Source: a virus. From it: a stretch of DNA of 37,782 nt. The position numbers and the translations under genes are program-made. The stretch covers positions 1-37,782 of the IMG/VR virus record IMGVR_UViG_3300008113_004466. One strand, 5' to 3'. The number at the start of each line of letters is the position of its first letter. Position 1 is the first letter of the stretch. Below the pieces are notes generated by a model. It worked only from the letters and a program-made list of their open reading frames with translations. It did not search any database and was not told the origin of the DNA. Of this stretch, positions 12,269 to 31,750 are shown in pieces.

Positions 12269-12293
12269 GTCATGATATTTACTTTTATTTCCC

Positions 12294-12301: not shown

Positions 12302-12320
12302 AAAATAAAATAAGTATATT

Positions 12321-13007
12321 ATGACCTTTAATTTTAGCAAAGAACCTTTACCAAATTCTAGAGAGTATTTGTTTAGTGATGCCAAATGTTTAAAACTTGA
12401 CTTGACTGTTCCGTTTGAGGAAATGGCCGAAGAAGCCAAGGCATTACGATCAAAATTTATTCTTTATAGGAACAACGATGGTTACGATCATAAAGGTTGG
12501 TGGAGTTTGCCAATACACGGATTAGGTTTAGATAAACCTATGAGTTGGGATGCCTACGATTATGCCAGTCCTAATGAGGCTGCAAAAGATTTTCGTTGGA
12601 CAGAAATTGCAGAACAATGTCCTGTAACTGTAAACTGGCTTAAAACAGTATTTCCTAGCCAGCGTTATGGTCGTGTAAGATTTATGCTTTTAGAAGCAGG
12701 TGGGTATATATCTCCACACTCCGATGGTCCTCACAGAATTCCTGAACCAGTAAATGTAGCATTAACTAATCCCAAAGGTTGTGAATGGCATTGGGGAGAT
12801 GGAGGCATTTTAGACTTTCCGCCAGGTACTGCTTATGCTATGAATATTAGTTATGAACACAGTGTTTATAACAATAGCAACGAAGATCGTTATCATTTAA
12901 TTATACATCATCATGATTCAACTCCTGAATGGAAAGATATGATGAAACTTGCATTGGAAAAACAAGATGAAACAGGTTATTTTTATTACAGTCAAGATCT
13001 CTACTGA
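12321..13007 (+). CDS. Aspartyl/asparaginyl beta-hydroxylase-family 2OG oxygenase
   Basis: A protein of 228 residues. It has H133-S-D135 in ISPHSDGPHR, a distal H180 in YEHSVYNNS and R190 in EDRYHLIIHH, the full iron and 2-oxoglutarate-binding set of the Asp/Asn hydroxylase family. The WGDGGILDFPPGTAY stretch is the expected strand pair before the distal His. It is first of five genes in the largest plus-strand island. Its 3' end overlaps the next gene by 41 bases. The substrate is unknown, but it may act on a product of the aminotransferase and amidinotransferase encoded downstream. Confidence 0.8.
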   Translation: MTFNFSKEPLPNSREYLFSDAKCLKLDLTVPFEEMAEEAKALRSKFILYRNNDGYDHKGWWSLPIHGLGLDKPMSWDAYDYASPNEAAKDFRWTEIAEQCPVTVNWLKTVFPSQRYGRVRFMLLEAGGYISPHSDGPHRIPEPVNVALTNPKGCEWHWGDGGILDFPPGTAYAMNISYEHSVYNNSNEDRYHLIIHHHDSTPEWKDMMKLALEKQDETGYFYYSQDLY

Positions 13008-14882: not shown

Positions 14883-15468
14883 TGTGGTTTCTAAATTTGA
14901 AGATGTAGTAGCAGAATTTTATTCTGCACCATATGCTGTAGCCACAGATTCATGCACACATGCTCTTGAATTATGTTTAAGATATAAAAATATAAAACAA
15001 GCAAGTTGTCCTAGTAATACATATCTTTCTGTTCCTATGACATTTGTAAAATTAGATCTTGACTGGAATTTTAGAAAAGAAACATGGCAGGATTATTACT
15101 ATATAACAGAACAAATTATCGATGCCGCAGTGCTTTGGCGTAAAGACAGTTACATTAAAGGAACATTGATGTGTATAAGTTTTCAATTTAGAAAACATCT
15201 TAGTCTTGGTAGAGGCGGTGCAATACTGTGCGATGACCCTGAAGCAGCCATGGTATTAAAAATGATGAGTTACGATGGCCGTGTTCCAAACGTTCCGTGG
15301 GCTGAACAAGATATATCCATGTTAGGCTATCATTATTATATGACTCCGGAAACAGCAGAACTAGGATTGAATAAAATTGTTAATGCAATGAAAACTCCTC
15401 CTAAAATATGGTCTAACAATGACTATCCAGATTTATCAAAAATGAAAGTATTTAAAGATGTTAAGTAA
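14869..15468 (+). CDS. Short DegT/DnrJ/EryC1-type sugar aminotransferase
   Basis: A protein of 199 residues, about half the usual 370-400. The family motifs are nevertheless clear: AVATDSCTHALEL (cofactor phosphate loop), PSNTYLSVPMTF, IIDAAVLW with D85 (pyridine-nitrogen Asp), and SFQFRKHLSLGRGGAI with K109 as the Schiff-base lysine. YHYYMTPETAELGL follows, as in full-length sugar aminotransferases. The last part is abbreviated. Such enzymes add an amine to a keto-sugar or cyclitol. The amidinotransferase that follows with an 11-base overlap could then act on that amine. Confidence 0.75.
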   Translation: MSNFDVVSKFEDVVAEFYSAPYAVATDSCTHALELCLRYKNIKQASCPSNTYLSVPMTFVKLDLDWNFRKETWQDYYYITEQIIDAAVLWRKDSYIKGTLMCISFQFRKHLSLGRGGAILCDDPEAAMVLKMMSYDGRVPNVPWAEQDISMLGYHYYMTPETAELGLNKIVNAMKTPPKIWSNNDYPDLSKMKVFKDVK

Positions 15469-16441
15469 AAACGAGTGGAGTCCTTTAAAGAGTGTTATTG
15501 TGGGAGTTGCCGACGGTGCAACTATTCCTCCTTTAGATATAAGTTTGCGTGTGGTTAATTATGCAGACAAAAAAGACGAAAAGGATATACCACAAGGTCT
15601 TTATCCACAACAGGTAATCGATGAAGCCAACGAAGATCTGGAAGTGTTTTGCAATTTTCTTAAAGGCGAAAGTGTAGAGGTACTAAGACCAAAACGTACA
15701 CCACTACCTAACTATTATAATTATTGTCCTAGAGATAGTGTGCTAGTTTATAGAGATATGATACTAGCATCGCCACAACCTTTACGTGCAAGACACAAAG
15801 AGTATTTGGCCATGCACGAGCATTTTGAACCTTTAGAACGACTAGGCGCAAGATATATCGAAGCGCCATTGAATCGCAATGACGACTTATATAATCTGAA
15901 TTGTCTAGGAGATAAGGACACACTTGCGTTGAATGAAACACAACCTTGTTTCGATGCGGCAAACATATTACGTGTCAACGATGATTTAATTTACCTTGTT
16001 AGTAACAGTGGTAATAAGAAGGGCGCAGAGTACTTACAAAGTCTAGTAGGTAATAAGCGTGTATGGACATTGGAAGGTGTCTACAGTTACATGCACATCG
16101 ACAGTACTATTACACTACTACGAGAAGGATTAATGCTGTTAAATCCTAGTAGAATAAAAAGTATAGATCAATTACCTAAGCCTTTACAAAATTGGGACGT
16201 TGTGTGGGCGCCGGACCCTGGTGAAGTTGCACACTATCCTGGTTACTGTAATAGTAGCAAGTGGGTAGCAATGAATATCTTTTCTGTTAATCCTAATCTA
16301 GTGGCAATACCAGATCATCAACACGAATTGCGAAAAGAATTAGAAAAGCACAAAATAGAATGTGCGATGCTGCCGGCAAGACAACAACGCACATTAGGTG
16401 GAGGATTCCACTGCGTTACGTTGGATTTAATCCGCGAATAA
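15458..16441 (+). CDS. Amidinotransferase-family protein, second copy
   Basis: A protein of 327 residues and shorter than the copy at 8255. The pentein catalytic set is present: R92-D93 in YCPRDSVL, FDAAN at 165-169, H213-I-D215 in YMHIDSTI, and C319 in GGGFHCVT as the nucleophile. The DAANILRV loop and the HIDSTITLLREG stretch are typical of glycine amidinotransferase-like enzymes. It lies directly downstream of a sugar aminotransferase, so amine formation and then amidination is a plausible sequence of steps. Its 3' end overlaps the convergent gene by 26 bases. Confidence 0.82.
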   Translation: MLSKNEWSPLKSVIVGVADGATIPPLDISLRVVNYADKKDEKDIPQGLYPQQVIDEANEDLEVFCNFLKGESVEVLRPKRTPLPNYYNYCPRDSVLVYRDMILASPQPLRARHKEYLAMHEHFEPLERLGARYIEAPLNRNDDLYNLNCLGDKDTLALNETQPCFDAANILRVNDDLIYLVSNSGNKKGAEYLQSLVGNKRVWTLEGVYSYMHIDSTITLLREGLMLLNPSRIKSIDQLPKPLQNWDVVWAPDPGEVAHYPGYCNSSKWVAMNIFSVNPNLVAIPDHQHELRKELEKHKIECAMLPARQQRTLGGGFHCVTLDLIRE

Positions 16442-18959: not shown

Positions 18960-19549
18960 TGTAGTTTTCCTATTACCATGTATCTAGTATACAAGGGTAG
19001 TTCTAATTCTCCGGCCCAAATAACATTGATGCCACATTGTTTTTTAAATTCTTCCAAACTGTTAGCGATCCTAACATGTTCGGGTATATTATAATTATTG
19101 CTTTGTAGTACTAGTAGGCTGTTATATGGCATGCCACTTAACCATAAATCGTATTGTTCCTGTGTTATATGTTCGCAACTTGTGTTAATTATAACATCAG
19201 CATCACTACGGATGGCACACATATCTGCGGTTACTGCACGAAACTTACCAACTATTTCCTCTTGCTTATTCATCATTACAGCAATAGGCTCGCATGTAGG
19301 ATCTATATCTATGCTACGAATATTAATTACTGGAACATCGCTTTGAAATAATAAACTTGCTAGTGTACCTACCCAGCCGCCATGTATATCCACTGTAACA
19401 AACTTCTTAACATGATTACGTAGATTAGTAATCAACCACTCTTTACTTTTAAGTTGACCGCTCCAGAACGCATCCATGGTCCGAATAGGATCTGGACTTT
19501 GTCGAATGGCTTGCATCCAAAAGTGTAAGTGGTCTGTATCTATTTGCAT
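18956..19549 (-). CDS. Class I SAM-dependent methyltransferase-like protein
   Basis: A protein of 197 residues. The sequence has a Rossmann-like order: FVTVDIHGGWVGTLASLLF (a motif I-type loop), then NIRSIDIDPTCEP (acidic residue that binds the SAM ribose), then DADVIINTSCEHI (motif IV). The glycine loop is unusual (HGGWVG). The N-terminal helix region FWMQAIRQSPDPIRTMDAFW is conserved-looking. It overlaps the upstream radical SAM gene by ten bases. A methyl acceptor cannot be named. Confidence 0.6.
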   Translation of the reverse strand: MQIDTDHLHFWMQAIRQSPDPIRTMDAFWSGQLKSKEWLITNLRNHVKKFVTVDIHGGWVGTLASLLFQSDVPVINIRSIDIDPTCEPIAVMMNKQEEIVGKFRAVTADMCAIRSDADVIINTSCEHITQEQYDLWLSGMPYNSLLVLQSNNYNIPEHVRIANSLEEFKKQCGINVIWAGELELPLYTRYMVIGKLQ

Positions 19550-20517
19550 TTTGGTATCTTACTGTCTGCTGAACTAACACAACTAGGTGTAATACATTTC
19601 TTAGGTTCAGTAAACAAATCAAATCCTGTTAAAATATTTCCTAATGGCTGGTCATGACAACTATAACTACGTTTGACTTCTGTACTTCTTATTATAACAC
19701 TTTGATAGCCTGCATTGCAAGTCCAATCTTTAAACTTGTTAAATCCAAAAGCATTAAACCGTTCTGCTTGATCTAGTAAATGCTCTGTACCATTTTCTTC
19801 ATATAATGCAATTTGGTATATGTCCTCACCGTTGACTCGTTGTGGAAATCCTGTTTGCATCTTGTTAATCATGTCTTCGGTATAACCTTCAACGACACCG
19901 CTGGCTGTTGGATCACTTTGCGGTTTGAGTGTTACGTTAATTCCACGCTTGTGCAATCGTTCCATTCTATCATAAAGTTCATAAAACTTTTCAGGAACCA
20001 TTACTTGATTAACTGTTACATGAACTAGTTCGTATTGTAACTGTAAACACTTGTCTCCGAACTCTTGCTCTTTGGCAAACTCATCGTGGAAACTAGCCGT
20101 TATACTGCGGCGCTGTAACATGTCTGTATTCTTACACCAAGTGTTCCACCACTTACTACCTGGACTTAGGTTAGTAGTCATGTGTATGCTTTGATAGGAA
20201 CTTTCTAACTCATCTAGGTGCTTGACTAAATCGTTTAAGTGCTTATATGCTGTGGGCTCACCGCCGCTGAACGACCAATGGAACTGGTTAAATCCATTGG
20301 CTCGTGCTTGACGCTTAATCTCGTCTACAGTAGATTTATATACTTCAAGCGGTTGGTGATCAATACGGTCACTGCGAGCATACGGCCAACAGTAAGAGCA
20401 GTTGTAATTACAAAAACGTCCCAGTATCCAACTGGTGTTGAATAAGGGACGATCTAGCATGGTCCGTTGACCAAACTTACTTATTTGTTGGAACGGGATA
20501 TCTTGAAAAGAATGCAT
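19540..20517 (-). CDS. Radical SAM protein with a SPASM-like C-terminus
   Basis: A protein of 325 residues from the ATG at 20517 (MHSFQDIP); other in-frame starts lie at 20535 and 20460, and no ribosome site decides between them. The cluster motif is C36-NYN-C40-SY-C43 and GGEP is at 85-88. The C-terminus has DWTCNAG, SYSCHDQPLGN and a last CITPSC region, the same frame as the proteins from 2157 and 6437, making three paralogues. It overlaps the upstream glycosyltransferase-like gene by 41 bases. Substrate unknown. Confidence 0.85.
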   Translation of the reverse strand: MHSFQDIPFQQISKFGQRTMLDRPLFNTSWILGRFCNYNCSYCWPYARSDRIDHQPLEVYKSTVDEIKRQARANGFNQFHWSFSGGEPTAYKHLNDLVKHLDELESSYQSIHMTTNLSPGSKWWNTWCKNTDMLQRRSITASFHDEFAKEQEFGDKCLQLQYELVHVTVNQVMVPEKFYELYDRMERLHKRGINVTLKPQSDPTASGVVEGYTEDMINKMQTGFPQRVNGEDIYQIALYEENGTEHLLDQAERFNAFGFNKFKDWTCNAGYQSVIIRSTEVKRSYSCHDQPLGNILTGFDLFTEPKKCITPSCVSSADSKIPKCK

Positions 20518-21172
20518 GTAACCACTCGAAGTCATTTATTTTACTTAAGGCTGCTAAGTCTCCTGCCTTTTGCATGCCGTACATCTTACCATCTTCTGCG
20601 CCCAAGTAAGCCCAGTCATTGTGGGGCTTGTCTTGAAAATATGTACACCATGTCATCAAACGATGCTCTGTTTCTGCATCTACTTGTCCGTCAATTACCT
20701 TTGCGGCAAGTTTTACACATTCTCTAAATGCCGACTTCCAAGAATTGAAAGGGTCTGTATTAAATGCTGTAATATTAGATACTTGATCCATGGCTTTAAA
20801 TTTTGTACTAATACTTGTTGTCATGTCAGGCTTAGTAACGTCCATGTCTAATGTTAGTTTACGTGGAAGTAGTTTAACACCACCGTAGCCGTATTCTAAA
20901 CCGTTGATTGGATTTTGACTTCGCCATACGTGAACAACATCTAAATCGTACTCACTAACTTCGTGGTCAAAATTAAAATCATCTAATACTTCTGCATCAC
21001 CGTCTACTACCCAAAACATTTTTGTAAAACATTTTTTTGCCGCGGCAATGTGTGCTTGATGTATACCTTTAACATCCTTAACACGCTTGGCTAAAGGAAA
21101 ACGTTTCTTAAGACGTTCCCAATTGACTTCTGCATTTGGTTCGCCGTAACTAATAAAAACAATATCGTACAT
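20477..21172 (-). CDS. Glycosyltransferase-like protein ('EPNAE' type)
   Basis: A protein of 231 residues from the ATG at 21172, which overlaps the stop of the SDR gene as TAATG. The N-terminus FISYGEPNAEVNWERL, then KRVKDVKGIHQAH and MFWVVDGDAEVLDDF form a GT-A-like nucleotide-sugar pocket with DGD as the likely metal-binding DxD. GYGGVKLLPRK follows, as expected for an acceptor loop. A longer paralogue with the same order of motifs is encoded at 31750. Glycosyl transfer is inferred from the fold pattern; donor and acceptor are unknown. Confidence 0.65.
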   Translation of the reverse strand: MYDIVFISYGEPNAEVNWERLKKRFPLAKRVKDVKGIHQAHIAAAKKCFTKMFWVVDGDAEVLDDFNFDHEVSEYDLDVVHVWRSQNPINGLEYGYGGVKLLPRKLTLDMDVTKPDMTTSISTKFKAMDQVSNITAFNTDPFNSWKSAFRECVKLAAKVIDGQVDAETEHRLMTWCTYFQDKPHNDWAYLGAEDGKMYGMQKAGDLAALSKINDFEWLHAFFSRYPVPTNK

Positions 21173-21846
21173 TAGTGCCACTCCACTTCTGGAAACATTG
21201 TGATTGTTTTAATTTCTGTTGTATGCGGAACTTCTGCAATATGAAATACTGCATCAGCAACTATATCTGGATCAAGTGCATCTTCTGCTTTTCCGCAGGG
21301 GTAAGGATTCTGGTCATTCCACAATGTAGTATTGATGCCGCCTGGATGAATACTAGAAACTTTGATTTTACGACTACGAAGTTCTTGTCCAATAATACCA
21401 GCAAAACTTCTCAAAGCGGCTTTACTTGCACAGTATAGACTTTGATTTTGTATTTCTCTAATACCAGCAACACTATTAATAAAGACTATTCTGCTACCCG
21501 CAGTCATGGACTTTAGTGCTTCCATGGTTACATACATTGTACCTTTGATATTAGTGTCTATTATTGTACATATATCAATATACTCTGCTGTATCAAAAGA
21601 CCCAGCGTGAAATGCCGCACTGTTATTCACTAGCAAGTCAATGTTTGTTTTGACTTTACGCATAGTTTCAAACGCACCGTGGACTTGACTTATATTTGCA
21701 ATGTCTGCTGTGTAATGCGTATAATTTTCTAATTTATCGGGCGCAGTTCTGCCCAGGCCAATAACATGCCAACCTGCATTAATAAACTTCTTGGCCGTGG
21801 CTAATCCTAATCCTCTGCTTGTTCCTGTAATAACCACTGTCTTCAT
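21172..21846 (-). CDS. Short-chain dehydrogenase/reductase (SDR)
   Basis: A protein of 224 residues with all classical SDR marks: TGTSRGLG at 7-14 (NAD(P) loop), NNSAAF near 74-79, S125 in INSVAG and Y138-CAS-K142 as catalytic residues, and HPGGINT after them. The R after TGTS suggests NADP(H). It lies immediately downstream of the sugar-phosphate cyclase gene with an ATGA overlap, so reduction of the cyclase product's ketone is a reasonable guess. Expected in the cytoplasm. Confidence 0.9.
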   Translation of the reverse strand: MKTVVITGTSRGLGLATAKKFINAGWHVIGLGRTAPDKLENYTHYTADIANISQVHGAFETMRKVKTNIDLLVNNSAAFHAGSFDTAEYIDICTIIDTNIKGTMYVTMEALKSMTAGSRIVFINSVAGIREIQNQSLYCASKAALRSFAGIIGQELRSRKIKVSSIHPGGINTTLWNDQNPYPCGKAEDALDPDIVADAVFHIAEVPHTTEIKTITMFPEVEWH

Positions 21847-22907
21847 TGTAAACTCTTTAACCTCTGTGTTGCTTGTTGGATCTCGCTATAAGTAACATCG
21901 TTTATGATTTCACAACGTCCTATACTAATAGGGATAGGTAAATGTTGATTACCATTTCTATGATTCATTACATCGTTTAAACCACTCCATAATAAATCAA
22001 CGTTGTAAAAATCTTCGTGCTCTGTAGCAAGTCCACAATTTTTAATTACTGTAAAAATACGTTCTAAATCTTCGTTGGATAACAATCCTCTAAGATTGCT
22101 AATACAACTGCTCAACAAACAGTCTAAAATAACTGCTTCACCGTGTAATAGGTTAGGCACATTTTTCATTTCAACTACTGGACTAAAACTATGTCCAAAG
22201 TCTACTGGCCGTTTTAAATTTCGTTCCCACAAATTGTCATTTAATTCCTGTGTCATACCAGTGATTGCACGATCAATAATTTGATCTGCTAAGGCATGAT
22301 TTTGAAACTTTTGTGTTAACAACTGCTGTGGTGCTAGTTCCATCATCTCAAAAAGACGATGGTCTAGTACAATTGCCAACTTTAATATCTCTGCCATACC
22401 ATTGGAAATTTCCCTACGGTCCTGTGTTTTTATAAAACTCGTATCAATAAGAGTTTGTACAGGAGGATAAAAACTACCAATACGATTTCTACGACCAAAG
22501 TGATTAATACTAGTCTTAGCACCTACACTTGCATCAACTATGGCTAACAATGTTGTAGGAATTCTAACATAAGGAATTCCTCTACGATAGATACTGCAAC
22601 AAAATCCTACTAGATCTAATAGGACGCCACCACCTATTGCAATGATAGGTTCACTTCTACGAAGCACATTTTTTTCTTCAAAAAACGCAAGAACACGTTC
22701 TGCATTTTTCCAATGTTTTTCGGCTTCGGTAGATTCAATAGTTAATAATTCTACACCTTCAGGAATTCTTTCCTTGTATAGATTATACACTATTTGATCG
22801 ACAACTGCAATACGTCGTTGACCTGGAATTACCCAAAAGTCTAGAGCATCGGAAACTTTGTTAATTTCGAATTGTACAGGAAGATTAGTTTTTACACGCC
22901 AAGTCAT
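21843..22907 (-). CDS. Sugar-phosphate cyclase (sedoheptulose-7-phosphate cyclase/AroB-like)
   Basis: A protein of 354 residues of the dehydroquinate-synthase superfamily. It has GGGVLLD at 92-98, IPTTLLAIVDASVGAKT at 116-132 (NAD and phosphate contacts, K131), MAEILKLA at 171-178 (E173), DFGHSFSP at 236-243 (H239) and LHGEAVILD from 254 (H255); E173, H239 and H255 are the expected zinc ligands. The SFSPVVE stretch between the zinc histidines resembles 2-epi-5-epi-valiolone synthase-type enzymes more than true AroB, and no shikimate genes are near. It would cyclise a heptulose 7-phosphate to a C7 cyclitol. Subtype is inferred. Confidence 0.8.
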   Translation of the reverse strand: MTWRVKTNLPVQFEINKVSDALDFWVIPGQRRIAVVDQIVYNLYKERIPEGVELLTIESTEAEKHWKNAERVLAFFEEKNVLRRSEPIIAIGGGVLLDLVGFCCSIYRRGIPYVRIPTTLLAIVDASVGAKTSINHFGRRNRIGSFYPPVQTLIDTSFIKTQDRREISNGMAEILKLAIVLDHRLFEMMELAPQQLLTQKFQNHALADQIIDRAITGMTQELNDNLWERNLKRPVDFGHSFSPVVEMKNVPNLLHGEAVILDCLLSSCISNLRGLLSNEDLERIFTVIKNCGLATEHEDFYNVDLLWSGLNDVMNHRNGNQHLPIPISIGRCEIINDVTYSEIQQATQRLKSLQ

Positions 22908-23866
22908 AGTAATCTATTTACTAGACTACAGGCATGGGCATAAAAAAACTTGGCCGCTTCTATGTTATCTGCATGGCATTTAAAGGGCAACATACGGAAA
23001 AATTGTGTTGCTTCAAATAGTTTTACCAAATTGTATTGCTTGGGATATCTGTATTTTAATTCATCATTAAACAATTCATTAAAGTAAACAAGATTTTCTG
23101 GAACTTCATCTATGGAGAAATCCGTTATATTGCCGTTGACTTTGAGAACTCCGTCATTGAGCAACCCGTACAAACTATTACTACATTGGAGCACTTGACT
23201 GTAATCCATAAATTGGCTATCAACTATTCCCTCTTCGTACAGATCTATAAACACAATTTTATCAGTGTCTGGATCGTACAGAATATTTTCTAAAGTAGGA
23301 TTTCCGTGTACATAGCATTCGGAAGAAATCGCTTCGTCAAATAATTTAGAAAATTGTTCAATTTTATTTTTAATTCCGCTAAAAGTTTCGCCTTGATGCA
23401 CGTAAACATCTAAATTATAAAATTGTTCAAACTCAGGAAACTGTCTAGCATCATTTAGTTTTTGCAAAACTTCTTCTTGAAAGTAAAGTTTAAGACTACT
23501 AACGTTTGGTGTATACTTATGGCTGTGCAATCTATCAAAAGTAAACCACAAAGATTTATGCATCTTTTCTGTTTGATACCTTGTTAATGCATTTTCTTTA
23601 AACAATGTTTTAATATCTTTTGCATCAATATATTCGATATCAAAATATGCTCCATCGTCTACAAGTCCTGCATCATATACTTGCGGAACAACGCCTGGAA
23701 CAAGGGCGTTAAATCTTTGTAATTTTTTTAATTGACTGTACCAGCGTACATATCCATATTCTCTATCAGCACTAGTAGAGATAAGTTTTCTTACAAATTT
23801 CTTATCTCCATCTATGTGTAATGAAGTTGAATTAAGACTGCCGCCTTTTAACTTGATTATTTGCAT
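22904..23866 (-). CDS. APH-like sugar kinase family protein with catalytic Asp replaced by Asn
   Basis: A protein of 320 residues. The fold is that of aminoglycoside/choline-type phosphotransferases: K27 in FVRKLIS as possible ATP-binding Lys, EYIDAKDI hinge near 78-85, YVHGNPTLENIL at 185-196 as the catalytic loop, and IVFIDL with D208 as the metal-binding Asp. The catalytic base, normally Asp in HGD, is Asn189. Relatives with HGDxxxENIL occur next to nucleotidyltransferases in capsule-type clusters. It overlaps the cyclase start (ATGA). It may be an inactive or altered kinase for the cyclitol or sugar. Confidence 0.72.
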   Translation of the reverse strand: MQIIKLKGGSLNSTSLHIDGDKKFVRKLISTSADREYGYVRWYSQLKKLQRFNALVPGVVPQVYDAGLVDDGAYFDIEYIDAKDIKTLFKENALTRYQTEKMHKSLWFTFDRLHSHKYTPNVSSLKLYFQEEVLQKLNDARQFPEFEQFYNLDVYVHQGETFSGIKNKIEQFSKLFDEAISSECYVHGNPTLENILYDPDTDKIVFIDLYEEGIVDSQFMDYSQVLQCSNSLYGLLNDGVLKVNGNITDFSIDEVPENLVYFNELFNDELKYRYPKQYNLVKLFEATQFFRMLPFKCHADNIEAAKFFYAHACSLVNRLL

Positions 23867-23867
23867 T

Positions 23868-25106
23868 TTAAAATTCTAATACCCACTCTGGTAATGATCC
23901 GTTATCAGTCTTATATCCCCACTTGTCGATGGCGATTCTAAATTCTTCTCCAGGTTTTTTATCTATGGCTTGGCGCATGGCTAGTGCTCCTGCCAGTGTT
24001 CCGTTAGGATGTCCGTGTACTGCGCCTCCACAGTTGGCAAGAAAGTCAGTGCCAAACTTTTCAGTTGTAGCAGTTACTATGCCAGGATGCATACCACAAC
24101 TTAATGCTGGCAGTACATTTCTCTTGTGTAGAGTTTCCATTGTGTATTTGAGATCAGTTTCGTCATCGCTGAGATAGCCTCCCCACATGCCTGCATGGAT
24201 AGTATCAACACCGCATAAGCCTGCAAGGTCACACAATACTGCCCAATCAATACCAAACGGATTACGTTTGTCTGTAAGGATCTTATCACCACTCTTCTGG
24301 TAATGAATAAACAAAGGTAAGTCTAGTTTACGAATAGAATTGTAAACACCTAGTCCACTCCAAAAGTTAATGTGAATACCGTTACCGCCATTGTTGGCTA
24401 CAAACTTAGCACGTTCTAGAATAGTATGATGATCTCCATTGATACAGAAACAATAGATAACATTACGTCCACAGTTATTAACAATGTTGGAAATTAATTC
24501 AACACGATCTTCAAGACTGCAAAAACTTGGATTACTTAAAATTTCATCTTCTTTAATAAAATCTACACCGCCGTCTAATAGTTCTTTAACCATGTCGGCT
24601 AGTGTACTAGGACTAATACCAGTTTTAGGTTTTACAATAGCACCAGACAACGGCTTGTCATAACGATTTACAAACTTTCTAATACCAGTAATACCTTGAC
24701 GTGGACCTAGAAAGTTCTTTTCAACATCAGCAGGAAATGCTACATGTTTTAGTCTACAGACTTTAAACATATTAATGTCTAGTTGGCCACCCATAAGTTG
24801 ACACATCAAATGACTAATGCCATCTCCTTGCCAATCTGTGTTTACTTTAGGAAATCCAATTTTTACTGTGCCTGCATATTTGCCTGTGAGTTCCTCTTCG
24901 CTGTGATAAATTACACACGATGACAATTCGAACAAGTCATCATTTTCCCAACGATTGCGAACGTTGGGATTTCCTACACTTTGACCTATGGCGAGATTCC
25001 ACGCGGCATCCTTTAAGTCGCCAAGAGTTTCGTATGTTTCAATATAATAAGTTACTACAACGCATCGATTTTTTTCTAACTCGGTTAAATCCCGAAAAAA
25101 TTTCAT
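23868..25106 (-). CDS. RuBisCO-like protein (form IV type)
   Basis: A protein of 412 residues aligned by eye to the RuBisCO large chain. Present: K159-P-K161 (sites of K175/K177 in the spinach enzyme), K185-E-D187-E188 (carbamate Lys and metal ligands), H268, H304, S336 and G360-G361. The loop-6 lysine (K334), needed for carboxylation, is replaced by Tyr311. AIGQSVG near 39-45 is also typical of form IV. It is therefore expected to enolise or isomerise a sugar-phosphate-like substrate rather than fix carbon dioxide. An AAAGGA ribosome site lies upstream. It sits between a kinase and a cupin/nucleotidyltransferase pair. Confidence 0.88.
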   Translation of the reverse strand: MKFFRDLTELEKNRCVVVTYYIETYETLGDLKDAAWNLAIGQSVGNPNVRNRWENDDLFELSSCVIYHSEEELTGKYAGTVKIGFPKVNTDWQGDGISHLMCQLMGGQLDINMFKVCRLKHVAFPADVEKNFLGPRQGITGIRKFVNRYDKPLSGAIVKPKTGISPSTLADMVKELLDGGVDFIKEDEILSNPSFCSLEDRVELISNIVNNCGRNVIYCFCINGDHHTILERAKFVANNGGNGIHINFWSGLGVYNSIRKLDLPLFIHYQKSGDKILTDKRNPFGIDWAVLCDLAGLCGVDTIHAGMWGGYLSDDETDLKYTMETLHKRNVLPALSCGMHPGIVTATTEKFGTDFLANCGGAVHGHPNGTLAGALAMRQAIDKKPGEEFRIAIDKWGYKTDNGSLPEWVLEF

Positions 25107-25123: not shown

Positions 25124-25456
25124 CTATTTGTTAACGATATCAATCTCAAACTTGTCGTTTGGATCACTAATATTTCTTACTACTACTAACTTGACATCAG
25201 TCAAATATTCACATTGACTGATTTCATAAGGACCAAGGACAAAAATTTCACCCGGTCCAAATACTTGATCATTTATTTTAATACTGCCTTCTACTACTAG
25301 ATTAACCTCAGTACTTTTTTTATGAAAATGATCTTTGTGGAATTCTCCTGCGGTGTGCTGATGGAACCCTACTTCGAAATTTTCTTTTAGAAGACTAGGT
25401 TCAAAGTTTCCTATAAACCACCCTTTAACAAAATCCTTAATGTGTGCTTGTTTCAT
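25124..25456 (-). CDS. Small cupin protein
   Basis: A protein of 110 residues from the ATG at 25456; the in-frame codon at 25465 is TTG. It has the cupin metal motif HKDHFHKKSTEVNLVVEG, with three His and a Glu, and GPGEIFVLGPYE as the second conserved block. Single-domain cupins beside nucleotidyltransferases often act as sugar isomerases or epimerases, but binding roles are also common. One base separates its start from the stop of the nucleotidyltransferase gene. Confidence 0.75.
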   Translation of the reverse strand: MKQAHIKDFVKGWFIGNFEPSLLKENFEVGFHQHTAGEFHKDHFHKKSTEVNLVVEGSIKINDQVFGPGEIFVLGPYEISQCEYLTDVKLVVVRNISDPNDKFEIDIVNK

Positions 25457-25457
25457 A

Positions 25458-26180
25458 TTAATCAAAAAATGCTGTGTTACTGTTAAAGTGCATAAGGTCG
25501 TCAGGTGTGCCTACTGGCCAAAATTCAGAATTATCAATGGCATATTTTTTAACTTTTAGACCACGTTGAATGGAATAGTTATAAACTGGTGCAACATAAT
25601 ATTCACCATTTTCTTTATGGTCATCTGCTATCATCTGTTCTGCATCTTGAAAGAAGTCTCGAGTATGTGCCCAATGATAGAAACCTATTGTAGCATCATT
25701 ACTAATTACCCGTTTTTCCCGTACTTCTACCACGAATCCGGCTTGCTCCTTAACGTAACTACATTTTGGACTTGTTTCTTTGTAAGTAACAATAAAATTT
25801 ACATCGGGCTCTCGTTGCATTTGATCTATTAAGTTAAAAGGATTCCATGACAAAAACTGATCACAATTAACACTTAACATAGGAGCATTTACATCTTTAA
25901 TATGATTTTTTGCCAATAATAAACTTTCGGCTGCACCGCGTGTTCTTCCTTTTGAAATTATAATCTCATCTCCAAGGCCAAGAAGTAATTTTTCTAAATG
26001 TTTGTTTTCTAATAATTGATCTTCTCTAACAACAAAATGTATTTTTCCTGGAATCTTAATAGATTCAACAGCGTGGTAAATCATAGGGGCGCCGTTATAT
26101 ATCATTAAAAATTTAGGTAGAGAAAGCCCTACGTTTTTAAAACGACTACCGTCACCGCACATTCCCATTATAATATTCAT
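25458..26180 (-). CDS. Sugar-phosphate nucleotidyltransferase
   Basis: A protein of 240 residues. The N-terminal signature is CGDGSRFKNVGLSLPKFL, a variant of GxGxRx....PK that binds NTP. SVNCDQFL supplies the metal-binding Asp, GFYHW follows, and VGTPDDL near the end is typical of NDP-sugar synthetases. It would activate a sugar- or cyclitol-phosphate as an NDP derivative for the glycosyltransferases nearby. It starts in an ATGA overlap with the upstream SGNH gene and is followed by the cupin and RuBisCO-like genes. The nucleotide and sugar are unknown. Confidence 0.85.
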   Translation of the reverse strand: MNIIMGMCGDGSRFKNVGLSLPKFLMIYNGAPMIYHAVESIKIPGKIHFVVREDQLLENKHLEKLLLGLGDEIIISKGRTRGAAESLLLAKNHIKDVNAPMLSVNCDQFLSWNPFNLIDQMQREPDVNFIVTYKETSPKCSYVKEQAGFVVEVREKRVISNDATIGFYHWAHTRDFFQDAEQMIADDHKENGEYYVAPVYNYSIQRGLKVKKYAIDNSEFWPVGTPDDLMHFNSNTAFFD

Positions 26181-26863
26181 TTAATTTCTTCCGATATTGT
26201 CTCTGCCCAAATTTTATGTGTTTCTATCTTTGGGTGTTTATACTGGTATACAGGCAAATCTTTTTTAAACACATCTTCTAACCAAGAAGATTTTAGATAC
26301 ATATTTTCTATTTCTAGATTCCATTTCTTCTTAATAACTTCTTGCCAGTGATAAGGTGGTTTTCCTACAGCAATAAAATCATAATATCTAATGCCTAAAC
26401 CTTTGCATAACAATCTTAAATTAACCATATACATTGCTGTAATATGTTCTCCATAACTATCGGTATAGTTTTCATAAAATGCTTCGTGGTACTTTTTTAA
26501 AGATTTTTCGTCCACTGGTAAATTATGCAATCTAAGACAGTGCTGTATAGTAACACTATAAATTCCTTGACCACTGCTAACCTCTGATCGTTCAGGACTA
26601 GTCCAGCCAATACAAATGAATAAGTCTTTAGGATCTTTTCCGCTTCCTAGCCAGTTATTAATAAAATCGTTGGTCCTTCTAAATATTCTTGCGTTACTAG
26701 CGCCACCTTGTGCATCATTAACACAAACTGGAATATTTAAATTTTGACTTAGGAACCAGGGCCAAGTATTGTAATACCGTGTCGAAGCAGAATTCATATC
26801 ACTGCGATCAGGGATTTCATCACCATGTGTCCAACTGTCTCCGTTAGCATATAGATATTTCAT
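26177..26863 (-). CDS. SGNH/GDSL hydrolase-like protein, copy 1
   Basis: A protein of 228 residues. Block I is NGDSWTHGDE (nucleophile Ser), block II GGASNARIFRR, then CIGWTSPERSE, and near the C-terminus KHPKIETHKIWAE with the His of block V. No signal peptide is seen, so it acts in the infected cell or on the particle. SGNH enzymes in sugar clusters add or remove acyl groups. It is the first of three tandem SGNH genes (26177-28448), joined by ATGA or short overlaps. Confidence 0.78.
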   Translation of the reverse strand: MKYLYANGDSWTHGDEIPDRSDMNSASTRYYNTWPWFLSQNLNIPVCVNDAQGGASNARIFRRTNDFINNWLGSGKDPKDLFICIGWTSPERSEVSSGQGIYSVTIQHCLRLHNLPVDEKSLKKYHEAFYENYTDSYGEHITAMYMVNLRLLCKGLGIRYYDFIAVGKPPYHWQEVIKKKWNLEIENMYLKSSWLEDVFKKDLPVYQYKHPKIETHKIWAETISEEIK

Positions 26864-27636
26864 AATGAGTTATTTTTAATATGTTTAATTATTTTTTGAG
26901 ATACTTCTATATGTCCACGTTCATTGCAATGTCCACTCCTGCCGCTGTCAGGATACTTTCGAGAATATACTCCCCAATCGTTATGCAAATAATTTTTCTT
27001 ATCAATAAATCTATCCTGATGAGTATTAGGAGACATTATTACGTGTGAAAATCCTGCTTCTTTCAACATCATATGCATCATTAAGATGAGACCAGTATCA
27101 TTAGTTTGTTTAATTGAATCATCATATAACTCTTCGTAAAATGTTTTAATGGCTGCTAATTTTGTGTCAACATCTTTAAATAGGTATGCAAGATTAGGAC
27201 CTTCGCCTGAACTAAAGTGAAGGAAATTACTAACAGTTTCACTTATTAATTTAGGTGTCTTATTAGGTTTGAAAGGTATTTCTCTGCGATGCCATGCATC
27301 TCTTGCACAATAAGGTTCGTGCAAATGATATTCAACATCTGCTAATGTGTAATTGTTATAAGATTTAGTGACATGATCTGATGGAAGTGTAAATCTGCTA
27401 TGATTAGTCGTTGATACCAATACTAACGGCTTATCTTTATTCTTGTAATCTTCTATTACTTGCTGGACTTGCAAATAAATGATGTAGTTACAGCACCCGC
27501 TTCTCGCATAAATCTTATATGGTACTTCGAATGACTCTGCAACCAAACCTCCAAAACTTCTTTCAAAGCAGTACTTAGATTCTATACCTAAGCCGCAGGC
27601 AAAACTATCGCCACAGATTGCAACTTCTTTTACCAT
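26860..27636 (-). CDS. SGNH/GDSL hydrolase-like protein, copy 2
   Basis: A protein of 258 residues. CGDSFACGLG is block I, ARSGCCNYII is an altered block II, and the C-terminus has GHCNERGHIEVSQKI with the catalytic His region. It is the most diverged of the three SGNH proteins here and lacks the WTSPER phrase of the other two, having STTNHSRF instead. It overlaps the next gene by four bases and the upstream one by seven. Esterase or acyltransferase activity is inferred only from the fold. Confidence 0.72.
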   Translation of the reverse strand: MVKEVAICGDSFACGLGIESKYCFERSFGGLVAESFEVPYKIYARSGCCNYIIYLQVQQVIEDYKNKDKPLVLVSTTNHSRFTLPSDHVTKSYNNYTLADVEYHLHEPYCARDAWHRREIPFKPNKTPKLISETVSNFLHFSSGEGPNLAYLFKDVDTKLAAIKTFYEELYDDSIKQTNDTGLILMMHMMLKEAGFSHVIMSPNTHQDRFIDKKNYLHNDWGVYSRKYPDSGRSGHCNERGHIEVSQKIIKHIKNNSL

Positions 27637-28448
27637 AATTTATTTTCCTTTCCGTACTCATGCATGTGATCAGCCCACCATGTGTGTCCTAGTTCACTAG
27701 GATGCATATTTAAGATACTGTCTTTCTGATTTGGACTTGTATCTTTGTTGACAATGTAATTGTGGAAACTATGAATCTTATCGTCTTTGTGCATAAAACG
27801 TACAGGGTCGATCATATTCCATACCATCTCATCAGGTTGACCTTGATAATGTCTGTTGTACGGGTCATCAGTCCATTGACGAATATGCATGTCATTACGC
27901 TGATAAAATGCTTGAAAAAATAAATGCTTAATGCCGTAGTTGTTAAACAATGTTTGCAGATAAAATACTTGCTGAAGATATCGATGCACATACTCTTCTG
28001 GATTCCACATATAAGTGGCGTAGAGATCAGCAAACTCGTTTAAGGGCTCCTGGGGATAACGGTGTTTCCACATTGGCCATAGTGTGTACCAAAAATGTTC
28101 AAATTTGTTATTAATATTTCTATAATAAAAATCTTTACGCTCTGGACTAGTAAATCCTACTACGACAAATAGTTCACTGGTGTCTTTTTTAGGAGCAAGA
28201 TATTCTTGTGTAAGCCAACCTACAAGATTTCTAACTATTCTGTCATTACTGGCCGCAGGGTAACTTAAATTTACAACATCATTTATACCTAGATGGTTAC
28301 CTAACTTTGTAGGCCAAATTTTAGGCAAGCGATAACTATCGTTGGGTTCGTCCCAATCTTTAACACTTTCTGGCAATTTAGGATCACGGATTTCACTACC
28401 GTAGGTCCAACTATCTCCACTAACAACTAATCTTTTAAATTTTGGCAT
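27630..28448 (-). CDS. SGNH/GDSL hydrolase-like protein, copy 3
   Basis: A protein of 272 residues. Block I is SGDSWTYGSE, block II PAASNDRIVRN, then VVGFTSPERKD and, at the end, NMHPSELGHTWWADHM with the catalytic His and a preceding acidic residue. It resembles copy 1 closely in the phrases GDSWT and TSPER, so these two are probably duplicates. It overlaps the upstream glycosyltransferase-like gene by 14 bases. No export signal. Confidence 0.78.
   Translation of the reverse strand: MPKFKRLVVSGDSWTYGSEIRDPKLPESVKDWDEPNDSYRLPKIWPTKLGNHLGINDVVNLSYPAASNDRIVRNLVGWLTQEYLAPKKDTSELFVVVGFTSPERKDFYYRNINNKFEHFWYTLWPMWKHRYPQEPLNEFADLYATYMWNPEEYVHRYLQQVFYLQTLFNNYGIKHLFFQAFYQRNDMHIRQWTDDPYNRHYQGQPDEMVWNMIDPVRFMHKDDKIHSFHNYIVNKDTSPNQKDSILNMHPSELGHTWWADHMHEYGKENKLW
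28435..28440 (-). other. Stop overlap with the SGNH gene start region
   Basis: The stop of the 'SGQLR' copy 1 gene lies inside the start of SGNH copy 3, which begins at 28448, a 14-base shared stretch. This is one of the longer overlaps in the run and points to translational coupling rather than separate promoters. Confidence 0.35.
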
Positions 28449-29169
28449 ATCTATCTCTTATTTTATCGTAATCTCGTGTCGGGTCTAAGTGAGCAACATC
28501 TTCTCTCCAAGGTATTTCATTAACGCCTTGTACCCACCTAATATGTGCAATATTTTTTTCTATCGTCTTTTGATATATCATTGTACCTGGGCTTAGATAA
28601 TAATCGCTGACATCCATCTTAACACCTTCTTTTAAAAAGATGTCATTGTATAATGCTGTATATTTGTAATATCTAAAAGTATTACAAGCAATGTCCATGC
28701 TTTGACTATCACCCCAAAAAATTAAATCACTGATACCATGGTGTTCATAGTCTGTGTTATTAATACCTACATTTCCTCCGGCACTGTATATTGTTCTAGG
28801 AAGAATAGGAGTCAATGGAAATCTTGCATGTTCATGAAAAATTAAATCGAATCTAGTTTTAATAACCAAGTCGTATCTAAAATTATTTTCAATTTCGTGT
28901 TGTTTCTTTAATTCATTGGCCATCATTATGCTGTAAAGCATACTGCCAAAATTACCAACTTCGTCTACATTAATAGGAGGTTCTTCAATAAATTTCATTG
29001 GATTATACAAAGACTGTAATTCCAAACTAACGTCTGGTTTCAGTGTCCACGTATGATAGAAAACATCATAGTTACCTAGACTACCAAAAAATCTACGAAA
29101 AACATCGTGTCCAAGAATACCCGTGCGAAGTTGTCCGCTAATGCAGATTGCGATTTTACCAGACTTCAA
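28435..29169 (-). CDS. 'SGQLR' glycosyltransferase-like protein, copy 1 (TTG start)
   Basis: A protein of 244 residues. The start is chosen at TTG 29167-29169 because a perfect AGGAGG ribosome site lies six bases before it; a GTG at 29190 lies upstream of that site. The N-terminus IAICISGQLRTG, then YDVFYHTW and VIKTRFDLIF (an RxD metal-binding-like motif) define a family I know from cyanophages and algae as putative glycosyltransferases. SDLIFWGDSQSM follows. It overlaps the next upstream copy by 14 bases. Activity is inferred. Confidence 0.65.
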   Translation of the reverse strand: MKSGKIAICISGQLRTGILGHDVFRRFFGSLGNYDVFYHTWTLKPDVSLELQSLYNPMKFIEEPPINVDEVGNFGSMLYSIMMANELKKQHEIENNFRYDLVIKTRFDLIFHEHARFPLTPILPRTIYSAGGNVGINNTDYEHHGISDLIFWGDSQSMDIACNTFRYYKYTALYNDIFLKEGVKMDVSDYYLSPGTMIYQKTIEKNIAHIRWVQGVNEIPWREDVAHLDPTRDYDKIRDRYAKI

Positions 29170-29929
29170 AGCCGCCCTCCTTTTTTGCACAACTTAATTC
29201 TGCACTTTGTCTAAACAGTTTAACATCCCAGTGATTATTTTGCAACCGAATATTATTTTTCTTTAAGTAATGAAAGAAAACAAACTCTGGAGTAAATGTT
29301 GTTTGTCCAGGATTAGTAAACCATTTTTTATCAATATATCCTAAATTAATATAATAATCAGAAATTAGGTCGTGAGTATCGCTATCAGCAATCCAAAATA
29401 TATCGCCCATGCGTCCTTTGAATTCTGTAGGGGTCCACCCCATATGAAATCCATGCATGGTCATGGGCTGAACATTTCTATAAAACTCTGTCATGTTATG
29501 AGTATAGAATGCATCAAACCTTGCACGAACAACTGCCTTGTATTGTAAATTATTTTCAATTTCATACTGACGTTTTAAATTAGCACAACGCATAATGCCG
29601 TAAAATTGACTAATGAAAGGACCGTGTGTAATTGCCTGAGTATCACTAAAAGGAGGAAGTTCTTTACACGATTCAACTAAAAACTTTTTAGGTTTTAATA
29701 TATCAAGTATTTCTTGTATTTCACTATCTGCAACAGGCACTGGTGATTTATTTGCACCAGCCACACTATTTGGAATAGAATTAAAATCCCAAATATGACA
29801 AAAGATATCTATGTTGTCTCTTGTACCACCGTGTTCAAGAATATGCATCCAGGTGTCTTTGCACTTGCGCCATGTCCTTAATTGTCCGCTGAAGCAAATA
29901 GCAACTTTATTGACGCCAGGATTGAACAT
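29156..29929 (-). CDS. 'SGQLR' glycosyltransferase-like protein, copy 2
   Basis: A protein of 257 residues from the ATG at 29929 (MFNPGVNKVAICFSG). An earlier ATG at 29968 has an AAGGAA sequence seven bases before it, but would overlap the upstream gene by 62 bases and that AAGGAA also encodes part of the neighbour. Motifs are AICFSGQLRTWR, IDIFCHIWDF, VVRARFDAFY and DIFWIADSDTHD, matching copy 1. The pair is a tandem duplication. Nucleotide-sugar transfer is a reasonable but unproven role. Confidence 0.65.
   Translation of the reverse strand: MFNPGVNKVAICFSGQLRTWRKCKDTWMHILEHGGTRDNIDIFCHIWDFNSIPNSVAGANKSPVPVADSEIQEILDILKPKKFLVESCKELPPFSDTQAITHGPFISQFYGIMRCANLKRQYEIENNLQYKAVVRARFDAFYTHNMTEFYRNVQPMTMHGFHMGWTPTEFKGRMGDIFWIADSDTHDLISDYYINLGYIDKKWFTNPGQTTFTPEFVFFHYLKKNNIRLQNNHWDVKLFRQSAELSCAKKEGGFEVW
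29170..29182 (-). promoter_or_regulatory. Strong ribosome binding site AGGAGG before a TTG start
   Basis: On the minus strand AAAAAAGGAGGGCGGCT precedes TTG at 29169, with six bases between AGGAGG and TTG. It is among the strongest Shine-Dalgarno matches I noticed and lies inside the coding end of the upstream paralogue. It decides the start of the 28435-29169 gene. Confidence 0.6.
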
Positions 29930-30341
29930 AGTCGCCGCAAACTGCAACTGCTCTTGAGACATATACATAATCAAGTTCCTTATCTAAAATAACAACAACT
30001 GCGTTATCAATAATTTGTTTGTATGGGTAGGTCCAAACATAACCTTGACTGGTTAATACACGTTGATCATTTTCATGCCAGAAACAATGTACTCCATTAG
30101 CCAACATTAATTCCAATGCTTCTGCATTTTTAGCATGACACCAGAAACGTGTGTTCTTAATAAAACTCAAATCAACTTCGTACGTAGGAGCATCATGTCC
30201 TAACATTATTTTGCCGTCAACGTACCAAACATCAACTTCAACATCAAAGTCTGCGCGAATTGCAGACATAATGTATTCTGGACTGTTTTCTTTTTCAGGA
30301 TATACTCCTGTTAGGTTTCCTCGATGACTGATATATTTCAT
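29907..30341 (-). CDS. Short glycerophosphodiester phosphodiesterase-like (GDPD) protein
   Basis: A protein of 144 residues from the ATG at 30341, which overlaps the radical SAM stop as ATGA. It has SHRG near the N-terminus (H6, R7), KENSPEYIMSA, then FDVEVDVWYVDGKIMLGHD with E35, D37 and H49, the metal and catalytic residues of GDPD enzymes. The remainder of the barrel is shortened to about half of a normal GDPD (230-300 residues), but HAKNAEAL and CFWHENDQR are consistent with the family. It could hydrolyse a phosphodiester in teichoic-like or glycolipid substrates. Confidence 0.65.
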   Translation of the reverse strand: MKYISHRGNLTGVYPEKENSPEYIMSAIRADFDVEVDVWYVDGKIMLGHDAPTYEVDLSFIKNTRFWCHAKNAEALELMLANGVHCFWHENDQRVLTSQGYVWTYPYKQIIDNAVVVILDKELDYVYVSRAVAVCGDYVQSWRQ

Positions 30342-31750
30342 AATAGTGATTTGCAAAGTTTATAAAACTCTTCCATTTCTGGAAATGTTTCTAAAAAGTT
30401 TGTACCACGACGACGATCATGTTCGTCGACAAATCGTACAAAGTCTTTGCGTTTATTTACAGTACTCTGCTGTAGGTGCTCCCCAACTTTGAATGTACTT
30501 TCCAAAAGATGATAGACACGTTGTAATTTTTCTACTTCCCAATCGTAAAAGCCATTTCCAGCAAGTGGTTGCCAGTTTGCTGTTTGACGATTTTGATACA
30601 TGAAAGTCACTTGTTCTTCTACCTGTTTCAAATAATCAGGAGTAAGAATAGTCATACTCAAATGTTCTGGATAACGAAGATACGGAATATCGAAAATTAA
30701 TGGGTGTACACGATTCTGGTAATGATTAAAAGTGCTATTCAATGCAAGTAAGTCTTTCATGAAAGGCATGTAACTGGTAACACTTAGAATGTTGTAGGTA
30801 CTCATTATACCAAGTCTACTGTTTGGCACTTGTTCAAGGAATGTAGAACAATTTTCTAACCACTTGACATAATCTAGACCATGTCTGATATACTCTGCAC
30901 GTTTTCCGTGTGCTTCGCAACTGGTAAACAAGGTAAAGTCTTTGATCATGCCTTCACCTTGAATACGTTTCATTTTTTCTACAAACTTGTTAAACAGTTC
31001 ATCTGGTATACAGAGGTTACTGTTAATCATTAGTTCAAGTTCAGGGCGTGGATTTTCTATAATATAATCTAAAACTTTAAACGTATCTTTGCTTAATAAA
31101 GGTTCGCCGCCTGTAATACGGAAAACTTTCAAAGTCTTATACAGTTCAGGCCACCAATGCCAGAAAGCATTAACATAAGGATTATAGTCCTTATGAGGTA
31201 TAGGCATCTTGTCAATACTCTTTAACCAATCAATGTTATTAAACTTGTTGCTTGTTGGGTAAGCACCGTGCTGTTCAATCTCTTCCATCCACTTGCTAGA
31301 TACTTCTGGACTACAATAACTGCACTTAAAGTTACAGACGTTGCTGAAACTTACTTCCATGTAAGTTGGATTGAAGTTTCCTGCACCTGCAGACAATACT
31401 TCGTCTAAGTTTTGGCTCCACGTTTCAGCACTCTTAGCAACACGGTCACTGAAAATGTTTGATTCTTTAACATTGTCTTCAACGTTCCAGCAGTAGCCAC
31501 ACTCTTCAGGACGATCACCATCCAGCATACGTTGACGTTGTTGCTTCTTAAAAATAGTGTTGTGTAATGCACTAGGATCTGCGGCAATTTCTTGCAGTGG
31601 AATCTTATGTGTGTTAGGATGATGGCAACTATGTGTATGACCTGTGGCCAAGTGAATCGTTACTTGGTTCCATTTTGCCAAGCACATACCTGGGCCAACT
31701 TGATCTAATGCGGCTTTTACACTAGGATAAAAGTCAATTTTACTTGCCAT
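30338..31750 (-). CDS. Twitch-domain radical SAM protein
   Basis: A protein of 470 residues and the longest radical SAM protein here. The N-terminal twitch part has C23, C42 and C84-GY-C87; the core has C139-NFK-C143-SY-C146 and GGEP at 214-217, then MINSNLCIP. The long C-terminal region (from about 350) is rich in aromatic and charged residues and ends in a helix KDFVRFVDEHDRRRG, seen also in other phage members as I recall them. Its ATG shares a base with the stop of the glycosyltransferase gene (TAATG). Substrate unknown. Confidence 0.88.
   Translation of the reverse strand: MASKIDFYPSVKAALDQVGPGMCLAKWNQVTIHLATGHTHSCHHPNTHKIPLQEIAADPSALHNTIFKKQQRQRMLDGDRPEECGYCWNVEDNVKESNIFSDRVAKSAETWSQNLDEVLSAGAGNFNPTYMEVSFSNVCNFKCSYCSPEVSSKWMEEIEQHGAYPTSNKFNNIDWLKSIDKMPIPHKDYNPYVNAFWHWWPELYKTLKVFRITGGEPLLSKDTFKVLDYIIENPRPELELMINSNLCIPDELFNKFVEKMKRIQGEGMIKDFTLFTSCEAHGKRAEYIRHGLDYVKWLENCSTFLEQVPNSRLGIMSTYNILSVTSYMPFMKDLLALNSTFNHYQNRVHPLIFDIPYLRYPEHLSMTILTPDYLKQVEEQVTFMYQNRQTANWQPLAGNGFYDWEVEKLQRVYHLLESTFKVGEHLQQSTVNKRKDFVRFVDEHDRRRGTNFLETFPEMEEFYKLCKSLL

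Follow-up and report, generated by a model that had tools for sequence, protein, structure and literature searches.

A RuBisCO-like protein (RLP) encoded in a viral genome fragment has the RuBisCO fold and metal site, has lost residues essential for carboxylation, and belongs to a mostly viral clade in which it is accompanied by a conserved cassette of neighboring genes and excludes, in the viral loci sampled, the RpiB-type isomerase found in otherwise similar cassettes. We think it reasonably probable that this protein is a carboxylation-dead isomerase of a (probably five-carbon) sugar phosphate that feeds nucleotide-sugar synthesis for glycans. Its gene lies on the minus strand at positions 23868–25106 of the stretch of DNA analyzed here (the window; all 37,782 nucleotides of IMG/VR virus record IMGVR_UViG_3300008113_004466).

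The RLP gene is a complete reading frame from ATG to stop (412 aa) that starts 17 bases past a cupin gene, ends one base ahead of a kinase gene and has AAAGGA upstream of its start codon. The window protein matches the Pfam RuBisCO_large model (E = 9.9e-44, 150 bits vs a cut-off of 30.1), and its AlphaFold2 model (mean pLDDT 91.8) has two tied top matches in the PDB, MtnW 2zvi (Z = 43.2, rmsd 2.5, 367 residues aligned) and form III RuBisCO 2cwx (Z = 43.2, rmsd 2.2, 382 aligned), with form III RuBisCO also being the top PDB sequence match (143 bits). The initial annotation of a RuBisCO-like protein in a phage is thus confirmed by family and fold, and the window is itself a virus record, a fragment with a tail-fiber match near the region. 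The viral structures of BFVD gave 13 matches (E ≤ 0.001; query TM-scores 0.25–0.37), none of them recognizably named RuBisCO. Nucleotide differences between the window gene and those of close relatives are mostly at third codon positions (17, 6 and 125 at the first, second and third positions, respectively, against L003), which points to purifying selection on the RLP.

Residue equivalences are given in spinach RuBisCO numbering. The window RLP retains K159, K161, K185, D187, E188, H304, S336, G338, G360 and G361, which include the metal-site residues (K185 is encoded at 24552–24554, minus strand), the KPK motif (159–161) and the GG motif (360–361) noted initially. The reported loss of the loop-6 lysine also holds, as Tyr311 (codon 24174–24176, minus strand) aligns with K334. 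H268, listed initially among the retained motifs, corresponds to spinach H292 and not to H294, and the position of the catalytic H294 is occupied by Gln270. Further changes in the window RLP are at the positions of E60, T65, W66, N123 and G380, which are G41, N46, P47, G107 and C337.

We aligned 111 distinct viral and 17 cellular clade members, omitting viral sequences shorter than 350 aa and exact duplicates, with references from forms I–III, MtnW, OiaX-like proteins and other RLPs. K175, K177, K201, D203, E204, S379, G381 and G403 are invariant in all 128 clade members and G404 is retained in 125 of them. The conserved positions cover the metal site, the K175/K177 equivalents and the P1-site glycines. 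The substitutions E60→Gly, T65→Asn, W66→Pro, N123→Gly, H294→Gln, K334→Tyr and G380→Cys are likewise present in 128/128; the R295 position has Lys or Ser, with Arg in a single sequence, and the H327 position has His or Gln. Since the metal site is intact but the loop-6 lysine is missing, as are several residues on the substrate side, these proteins appear, by analogy, to be competent for enolization and not for carboxylation. To judge from these sequences, the RLP is very probably non-carboxylating. The description of the protein as non-carboxylating and form-IV-like, in the broad sense of RuBisCO homology and fold combined with loss of carboxylation-essential residues, is therefore upheld, with K334, N123 and H294 changed in 111/111 viral and 17/17 cellular members, and the absence of catalytic K334, N123, H294 and E60 places the RLP outside forms I–III.

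Relatives are widespread in viruses. When IMG/VR was scanned with the window protein, relatives turned up on 238 contigs, and a second scan, with a distant clade member, gave 169. The best 80 of each scan, which partly overlap, were retained, giving a working set of 145 viral loci (window included) after eight duplicates, recognized by contig name, were dropped, plus 23 cellular loci. The suggestion that such a protein would be unusual in a tailed phage was therefore too modest. A T4-type gp23 capsid gene was present in 13 of 31 virus records with RLP relatives (the 31 being records other than the window), and one contig of 518,643 bases (L055; IMGVR_UViG_3300017917_001342), a size typical of jumbo phages, carries gp23 and the RLP cassette together. 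No RLP was found by tblastn (E ≤ 1e-3) in the 50,697 phage records of INPHARED. Among GTDB genomes, 32 loci with relatives were found, in hosts that include SAR11 single cells, three Legionella species, Azospirillum oleiclasticum, Elusimicrobia, Verrucomicrobiia and small archaea. Clade counts omit L105–L113, the nine weakest of these loci; in a separate tree, eight of them (all except L110, a near copy) group with RuBisCO forms III and II/III. Of 200 SAR11 genomes searched, the clade RLP was present in one, the query genome itself, and two more gave weak matches of 64–70 bits.

In a tree of 60 rows, viral and cellular members of the RLP clade group together with support of 100/99, to the exclusion of forms I–III, MtnW, RLPs of the RLP-cupin type, IV-Photo and OiaX-like proteins, and the carboxylase rows form a different clade (97/95). 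The window RLP thus does not belong to a well-known clade of bacterial metabolic RLPs, the placement that would have contradicted the initial annotation. MtnW is represented in this tree by a single row (4nas) on a long branch, the IV-Photo rows (L234 and L241) are labeled by the phylum searched and by length rather than by a family model, and the RLP-cupin type is represented by L247, with an adjacent cupin, and L214, both of which are presumably of the Deep-Ykr type. Scores of the window RLP and five other members are far below all NCBIfam cut-offs for RuBisCOs and RLPs. The viral crown of the clade (support 100/100) is nested among cellular branches, a topology which suggests that viruses acquired the RLP gene from cells. 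Viral contigs or later transfers probably account for the few cellular rows within the viral crown: L082 equals a viral protein in the kept alignment columns and its contig measures 3.3 kb, which makes it probably viral, and L083, L085 and L087, also on short contigs, may be viral too.

Comparison with characterized relatives places the RLP near several of them but within none. Form III RuBisCO (Pyrococcus horikoshii 2cwx) shares its fold, Mg/carbamate site and K175/K177, but the RLP lacks K334, N123, H294, R295, E60 and T65 and lies outside the carboxylase clade. MtnW/YkrW (2,3-diketo-5-methylthiopentyl-1-P enolase; 2zvi, 4nas) is similar in fold, metal site and Gly at position 60, but the RLP scores only 118.4 vs 513.6 bits (TIGR03332) and 156.7 vs 409 bits (NF007095), differs at the K177, G380 and H327 positions, forms a separate clade and has other gene neighbors. 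OiaX and OiaX-like RLPs share the fold and metal site and again form a separate clade, and the RLP does not cluster with the Chlorobium-type RLPs of IV-Photo. The nearest functional parallel is the Deep-Ykr RLP of Rhodospirillum rubrum, a pentulose-phosphate isomerase that works with a cupin and converts 5-methylthioribulose-1-P to 1-methylthioxylulose-5-P (available text of PMC4958253). Nevertheless, the RLP clade is separate from the Terrarubrum and G146 RLP representatives, and the cupins are not recognizably related. Form IV-GOS consists of marine RLPs, as does part of the present clade, and the two may coincide; the 2007 GOS study lists 65 RuBisCO homologs outside known clades (PMC1821046, available text) and the name IV-GOS appears in PMC10173188.

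Directly upstream of the RLP gene on the same strand is a gene for a small cupin (25124–25465, minus; 113 aa), a family that accompanies either the RLP or the fusion protein described below. The window cupin alone has no Pfam match; among 20 family members there are 16 Cupin_7 and nine Cupin_2 matches (E ≤ 0.1), and the family profile matches PDB cupins. Next is a sugar nucleotidyltransferase (NTPt; 25458–26180, minus; 240 aa; PF00483, 3.3e-6) whose profile matches PDB 4evw at 1e-35. Farther upstream are two putative glycosyltransferases of the same DUF7796-like family, one at 28435–29190 (minus), assigned from a family profile and with its function inferred, and one at 29156–29974 (minus), with a weak DUF7796 match below the cut-off. 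These are followed by a miniature GDPD-like protein (GDPD-mini; 29907–30356, minus; 149 aa), a compact barrel whose AlphaFold2 model (pLDDT 94.9) has the GDPD fold (vs GDPD 1o1z, Z = 11.1, rmsd 3.3, 142 aligned) and whose family does not reach the Pfam GDPD cut-off (PF03009 matches in two of the 23 members, with a best E of 0.033).

This association is conserved. In the best 80 of the 238 viral loci, the NTPt neighbors the RLP in 78, the cupin in 67 and the GDPD-like gene in 63. Across the 145 viral loci (best 80 of each scan), the NTPt lies within 8 kb of the RLP on the same strand in 139, and the cupin, GDPD-mini and DUF7796-like glycosyltransferase lie within 8 kb in 113, 111 and 91, respectively. 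The NTPt accompanies the RLP in 18 of 23 cellular loci when one open reading frame is called per stretch, a procedure that fails in GC-rich cellular loci, and in 21 of 23 after six of the loci were re-read with unfiltered frames. In Azospirillum oleiclasticum, GDPD-mini, RLP, cupin and an NTPt match all lie within one stretch. Some cellular loci have additional genes. In Legionella L101 (L. drozanskii, LicD at 8749–9600) and L103, a LicD gene adjoins the RLP–NTPt pair, suggesting phospho-sugar transfer by LicD there. We rejected LicD as the general transferase of the system, as just 3 of the 44 genomes or records examined have it, all of them Legionella (L101–L103), each with a single LicD gene. 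A second NTPt-family gene lies near the RLP in L095 (SAR11) and L093 (a nanoarchaeal MAG), where two nucleotide-sugar steps may be coupled.

Cultured cyanophages that lack the RLP carry homologs of the cassette. In SynMITS9220M01 and Bellamy, an RpiB/LacAB domain (PF02502, 4.1e-33) forms one protein with the homologous NTPt, the homologous cupin comes next, and the glycosyltransferase and GDPD-mini are shared as well. Unlike the RLP cassette, however, that of the cyanophages has an RpiB-type isomerase together with a KdsC-like HAD protein and a PfkB kinase, and the RLP-linked and RpiB-fused NTPts are only ~30% identical. We sampled viral contigs by their cupin alone (the 80 closest to the window cupin of at least 561, with flanks of 5 kb) and found 62 loci with RLP only, 16 with RpiB only, two with neither and none with both. 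The same pattern holds among loci with less than 90% cupin identity (34 RLP, 6 RpiB, 2 neither and 0 both of 42; P = 5e-6 if loci are independent) and less than 70% (21, 2, 1 and 0 of 24; P = 0.011). Both loci with neither isomerase have cupin and NTPt, and one of them ends at the cupin. No RLP was found in 44 loci with the NTPt-RpiB fusion protein and no RpiB domain in 30 viral RLP records of up to 518 kb; in the five cellular RLP genomes searched, RpiB is present elsewhere in the genome. The KdsC-like HAD (83 bits, below a cut-off of 107) and PfkB-type kinase occur in 58 and 59 of 60 RpiB loci, respectively, vs 0 of 62 RLP loci. Within 8 kb, RpiB, KdsC-like HAD and PfkB are all absent from 185 RLP loci, a count that includes duplicate contigs and L105–L113.

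A separate, neighboring type of nucleotide-sugar cassette, in which the NTPt is fused to a HAD_2 (beta-phosphoglucomutase-like) domain, is common in aquatic viruses (L263, L267 and L392–L471 in our numbering). In 80 such loci, GDPD-mini was present in 75 and DUF7796-like glycosyltransferases in 62, and the cupin in three, only where RLP or RpiB occurs. As GDPD-mini is in 75 of 80 such loci, of which one has an RLP, we rejected GDPD-mini as specific to the RLP; it and the glycosyltransferases accompany HAD_2-NTPt without RLP and are thus shared context. We also rejected HAD_2-NTPt as a third exclusive alternative, because 17 of the 185 RLP loci also have HAD_2, and 2 of 80 loci have HAD_2 together with RpiB.

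Cytidylyltransferases that make CDP-linked ketoses exist (PMC10918830, available text), and RuBisCO-fold isomerases have a precedent in Deep-Ykr. These precedents and the occurrence of the RLP in the place of RpiB make a sugar-phosphate isomerase that feeds the NTPt the most likely function. A sugar-phosphate isomerase step, as initially proposed, therefore remains plausible, but its assignment to the neighboring cyclase and kinase pathway does not, these genes being found in 8 of 80 loci (best 80 of 238). In the isomerase reaction, Mg2+ would be bound at the carbamylated-lysine site (K185/D187/E188), abstraction by the RLP of the proton next to the carbonyl would leave a metal-bound enediolate, and reprotonation at another carbon would move the carbonyl or invert a center with no CO2 added. 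In RuBisCO, H294, E60 and N123 supply groups that act on the substrate; as the RLP has lost them, enolization by the RLP is here an assumption. The product of the RLP, or its substrate in activated form, might then be taken by the adjacent NTPt to yield a nucleotide-linked sugar, which the cassette glycosyltransferases would place on a glycan of the virion or host surface.

An isomerase, a PfkB kinase, a HAD phosphatase and a nucleotidyltransferase carry out the steps of NDP-heptose synthesis. The RpiB set resembles these steps, which suggests that it makes an NDP-sugar from a ketose phosphate. As RpiB loci have a kinase and also a phosphatase, the products of the two routes are not necessarily the same, and the routes may equally end in different sugars. 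A more far-reaching proposal, which we regard as possible but doubtful, is that the RLP represents the first case of a RuBisCO-family enzyme in nucleotide-sugar biosynthesis, from a lineage spread mainly by aquatic viruses, and that it replaces RpiB isomerase, PfkB kinase and KdsC-like phosphatase with one redox-free, ATP-free step, in which the carbonyl of a pentulose phosphate is shifted along the chain (turning a 5-phosphate into what is in effect a 1-phosphate).

Alternatively, the NTPt might act first, making a CDP- or other NDP-linked ketose that the RLP then isomerizes or epimerizes as a nucleotide-bound sugar. We consider this order unlikely, given that the RpiB stand-in is a member of a sugar-phosphate isomerase family and that, to our knowledge, RuBisCO-family sites described to date all act on small phosphates. 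The R. rubrum enzyme fits the latter point (PMC4958253, available text). Nevertheless, RLP and NTPt are a near-constant pair, and CDP-6-D-fructose is an example of a nucleotide-linked ketose that is modified by a second enzyme (PMC10918830, available text). An OiaX- or transcarboxylase-like role, in which the RLP would decarboxylate or cleave a branched or keto-acid sugar phosphate en route to an activated sugar, is improbable. The window RLP does match OiaX, an RLP family that functions in decarboxylation, at 155 bits and shares its fold and metal site, but the NF042437 score is 154.8 vs a cut-off of 700 bits, the RLP falls outside the OiaX-like clade of the 60-row tree, and the four aligned OiaX/OiaX-like sequences have K334 where the RLP clade has Tyr. 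In addition, the OiaX-type gene has a four-carbon acid sugar kinase next to it in 5/5 plasmid regions examined, and none was recognized in the RLP cassette. Isomerization of methylthioribulose phosphate in methionine salvage, with the cupin as partner, is what the R. rubrum RLP-cupin pair does (PMC4958253, available text), and RLP and cupin are also adjacent on a Terrarubrum plasmid. Yet the tree separates the RLP clade from RLP-cupin type RLPs and MtnW, E204 is His in three aligned RLPs of that kind but Glu in the RLP clade, and neither the NTPt nor the replacement by RpiB fits such a role, which is accordingly very improbable. Homology of the viral and Terrarubrum cupins was rejected on a profile comparison that gave no match, a weak test with one sequence on one side.

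The genes downstream of the RLP in the window had led to the proposal that it is coupled to a cyclase and a kinase and acts on heptulose phosphates. Here, an APH/fructosamine-kinase-like kinase (22904–23866, minus; PF01636, 3.9e-7), a sugar-phosphate cyclase of the DHQ synthase family (21843–22907, minus) and a short-chain dehydrogenase (SDR; 21172–21846, minus; PF00106, 2.4e-37) follow the RLP consecutively, and the structures closest to the cyclase are 4p53, a cyclase that we take to be ValA, and 5tpr. In this scheme, the RLP would handle heptulose phosphates for the adjoining sedoheptulose-phosphate cyclase and kinase in cyclitol synthesis. However, cyclase and kinase are both present in only 8 of the 80 related viral loci (best 80 of 238), as is the full set of cyclase, kinase and SDR, and the RLP occurs without them in the other 72. 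We therefore regard the three genes as local add-ons and dropped the cyclitol pathway, now a very unlikely explanation; the heptulose substrate falls with it, the constant partners being NTPt, cupin and GDPD-mini. An auxiliary metabolic gene for a real CO2-fixing RuBisCO is an extremely unlikely reading. Carbon fixation has been attributed to rbcL genes of viruses, and activity measured for one of them (PMC12615777, available text), but the K334, N123, H294, R295 and E60 positions are changed in 111/111 viral sequences of the RLP clade. Likewise, the RLP scores 198 bits vs 497 with the form III model and 188 vs 438 with the large-subunit model.

RuBisCO relatives are the main evidence on how carbon fixation arose from enolization chemistry, and we know of few RLPs with established functions. 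The present clade is large, coherent and mostly viral, with a fixed and distinctive active site, and is carried by many viruses of aquatic bacteria; its exchange with RpiB, an ordinary sugar isomerase in related viruses, points to the chemistry involved. If the isomerase function that we favor is correct, it would link the RuBisCO fold to the synthesis of glycan sugars. The clade also matters as a warning, because viral 'rbcL' genes are annotated as CO2 fixation and such calls need a residue check. In its available text, a landfill survey placed viral rbcL under CO2 fixation, a function it also lists for sampled IMG/VR viruses, and its own RbcL clusters with 'RbcL-like' proteins (PMC12607003). 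In the literature searched, mostly without subscription papers and hence a weak test, we found no report of the viral spread of the clade, its cassette or the exchange with RpiB, and no paper that brought RuBisCO-like proteins together either with auxiliary metabolic genes or with both a nucleotidyltransferase and phages. A paper on Pelagibacterales O-chains (PMC11898729) does not mention rubisco, ribulose, cupin or nucleotidyltransferase.

The rest of the window is rich in other enzymes. At least four radical SAM proteins (PF04055) are encoded within 38 kb (2157–3056, 3040–4302, 19540–20535 and 30338–31750), and the products of 6437–7366 and 11192–12439 look by eye like radical SAM proteins. 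Not far from the cyclase cluster, 14869–15468 matches DegT/DnrJ/EryC1/StrS aminotransferases. Two long proteins (8255–9505 and 15458–16441) resemble amidinotransferases by eye and have no Pfam match, and 10526–11203 encodes an aspartyl/asparaginyl beta-hydroxylase domain (PF05118, 1.7e-5). Between the NTPt and the glycosyltransferases, three proteins in a row (26177–28448) look by eye like SGNH hydrolases, the first of which (26177–26863) matches DUF6071; their homologs occur near the RLP in 5–7 of 80 loci (best 80 of 238).
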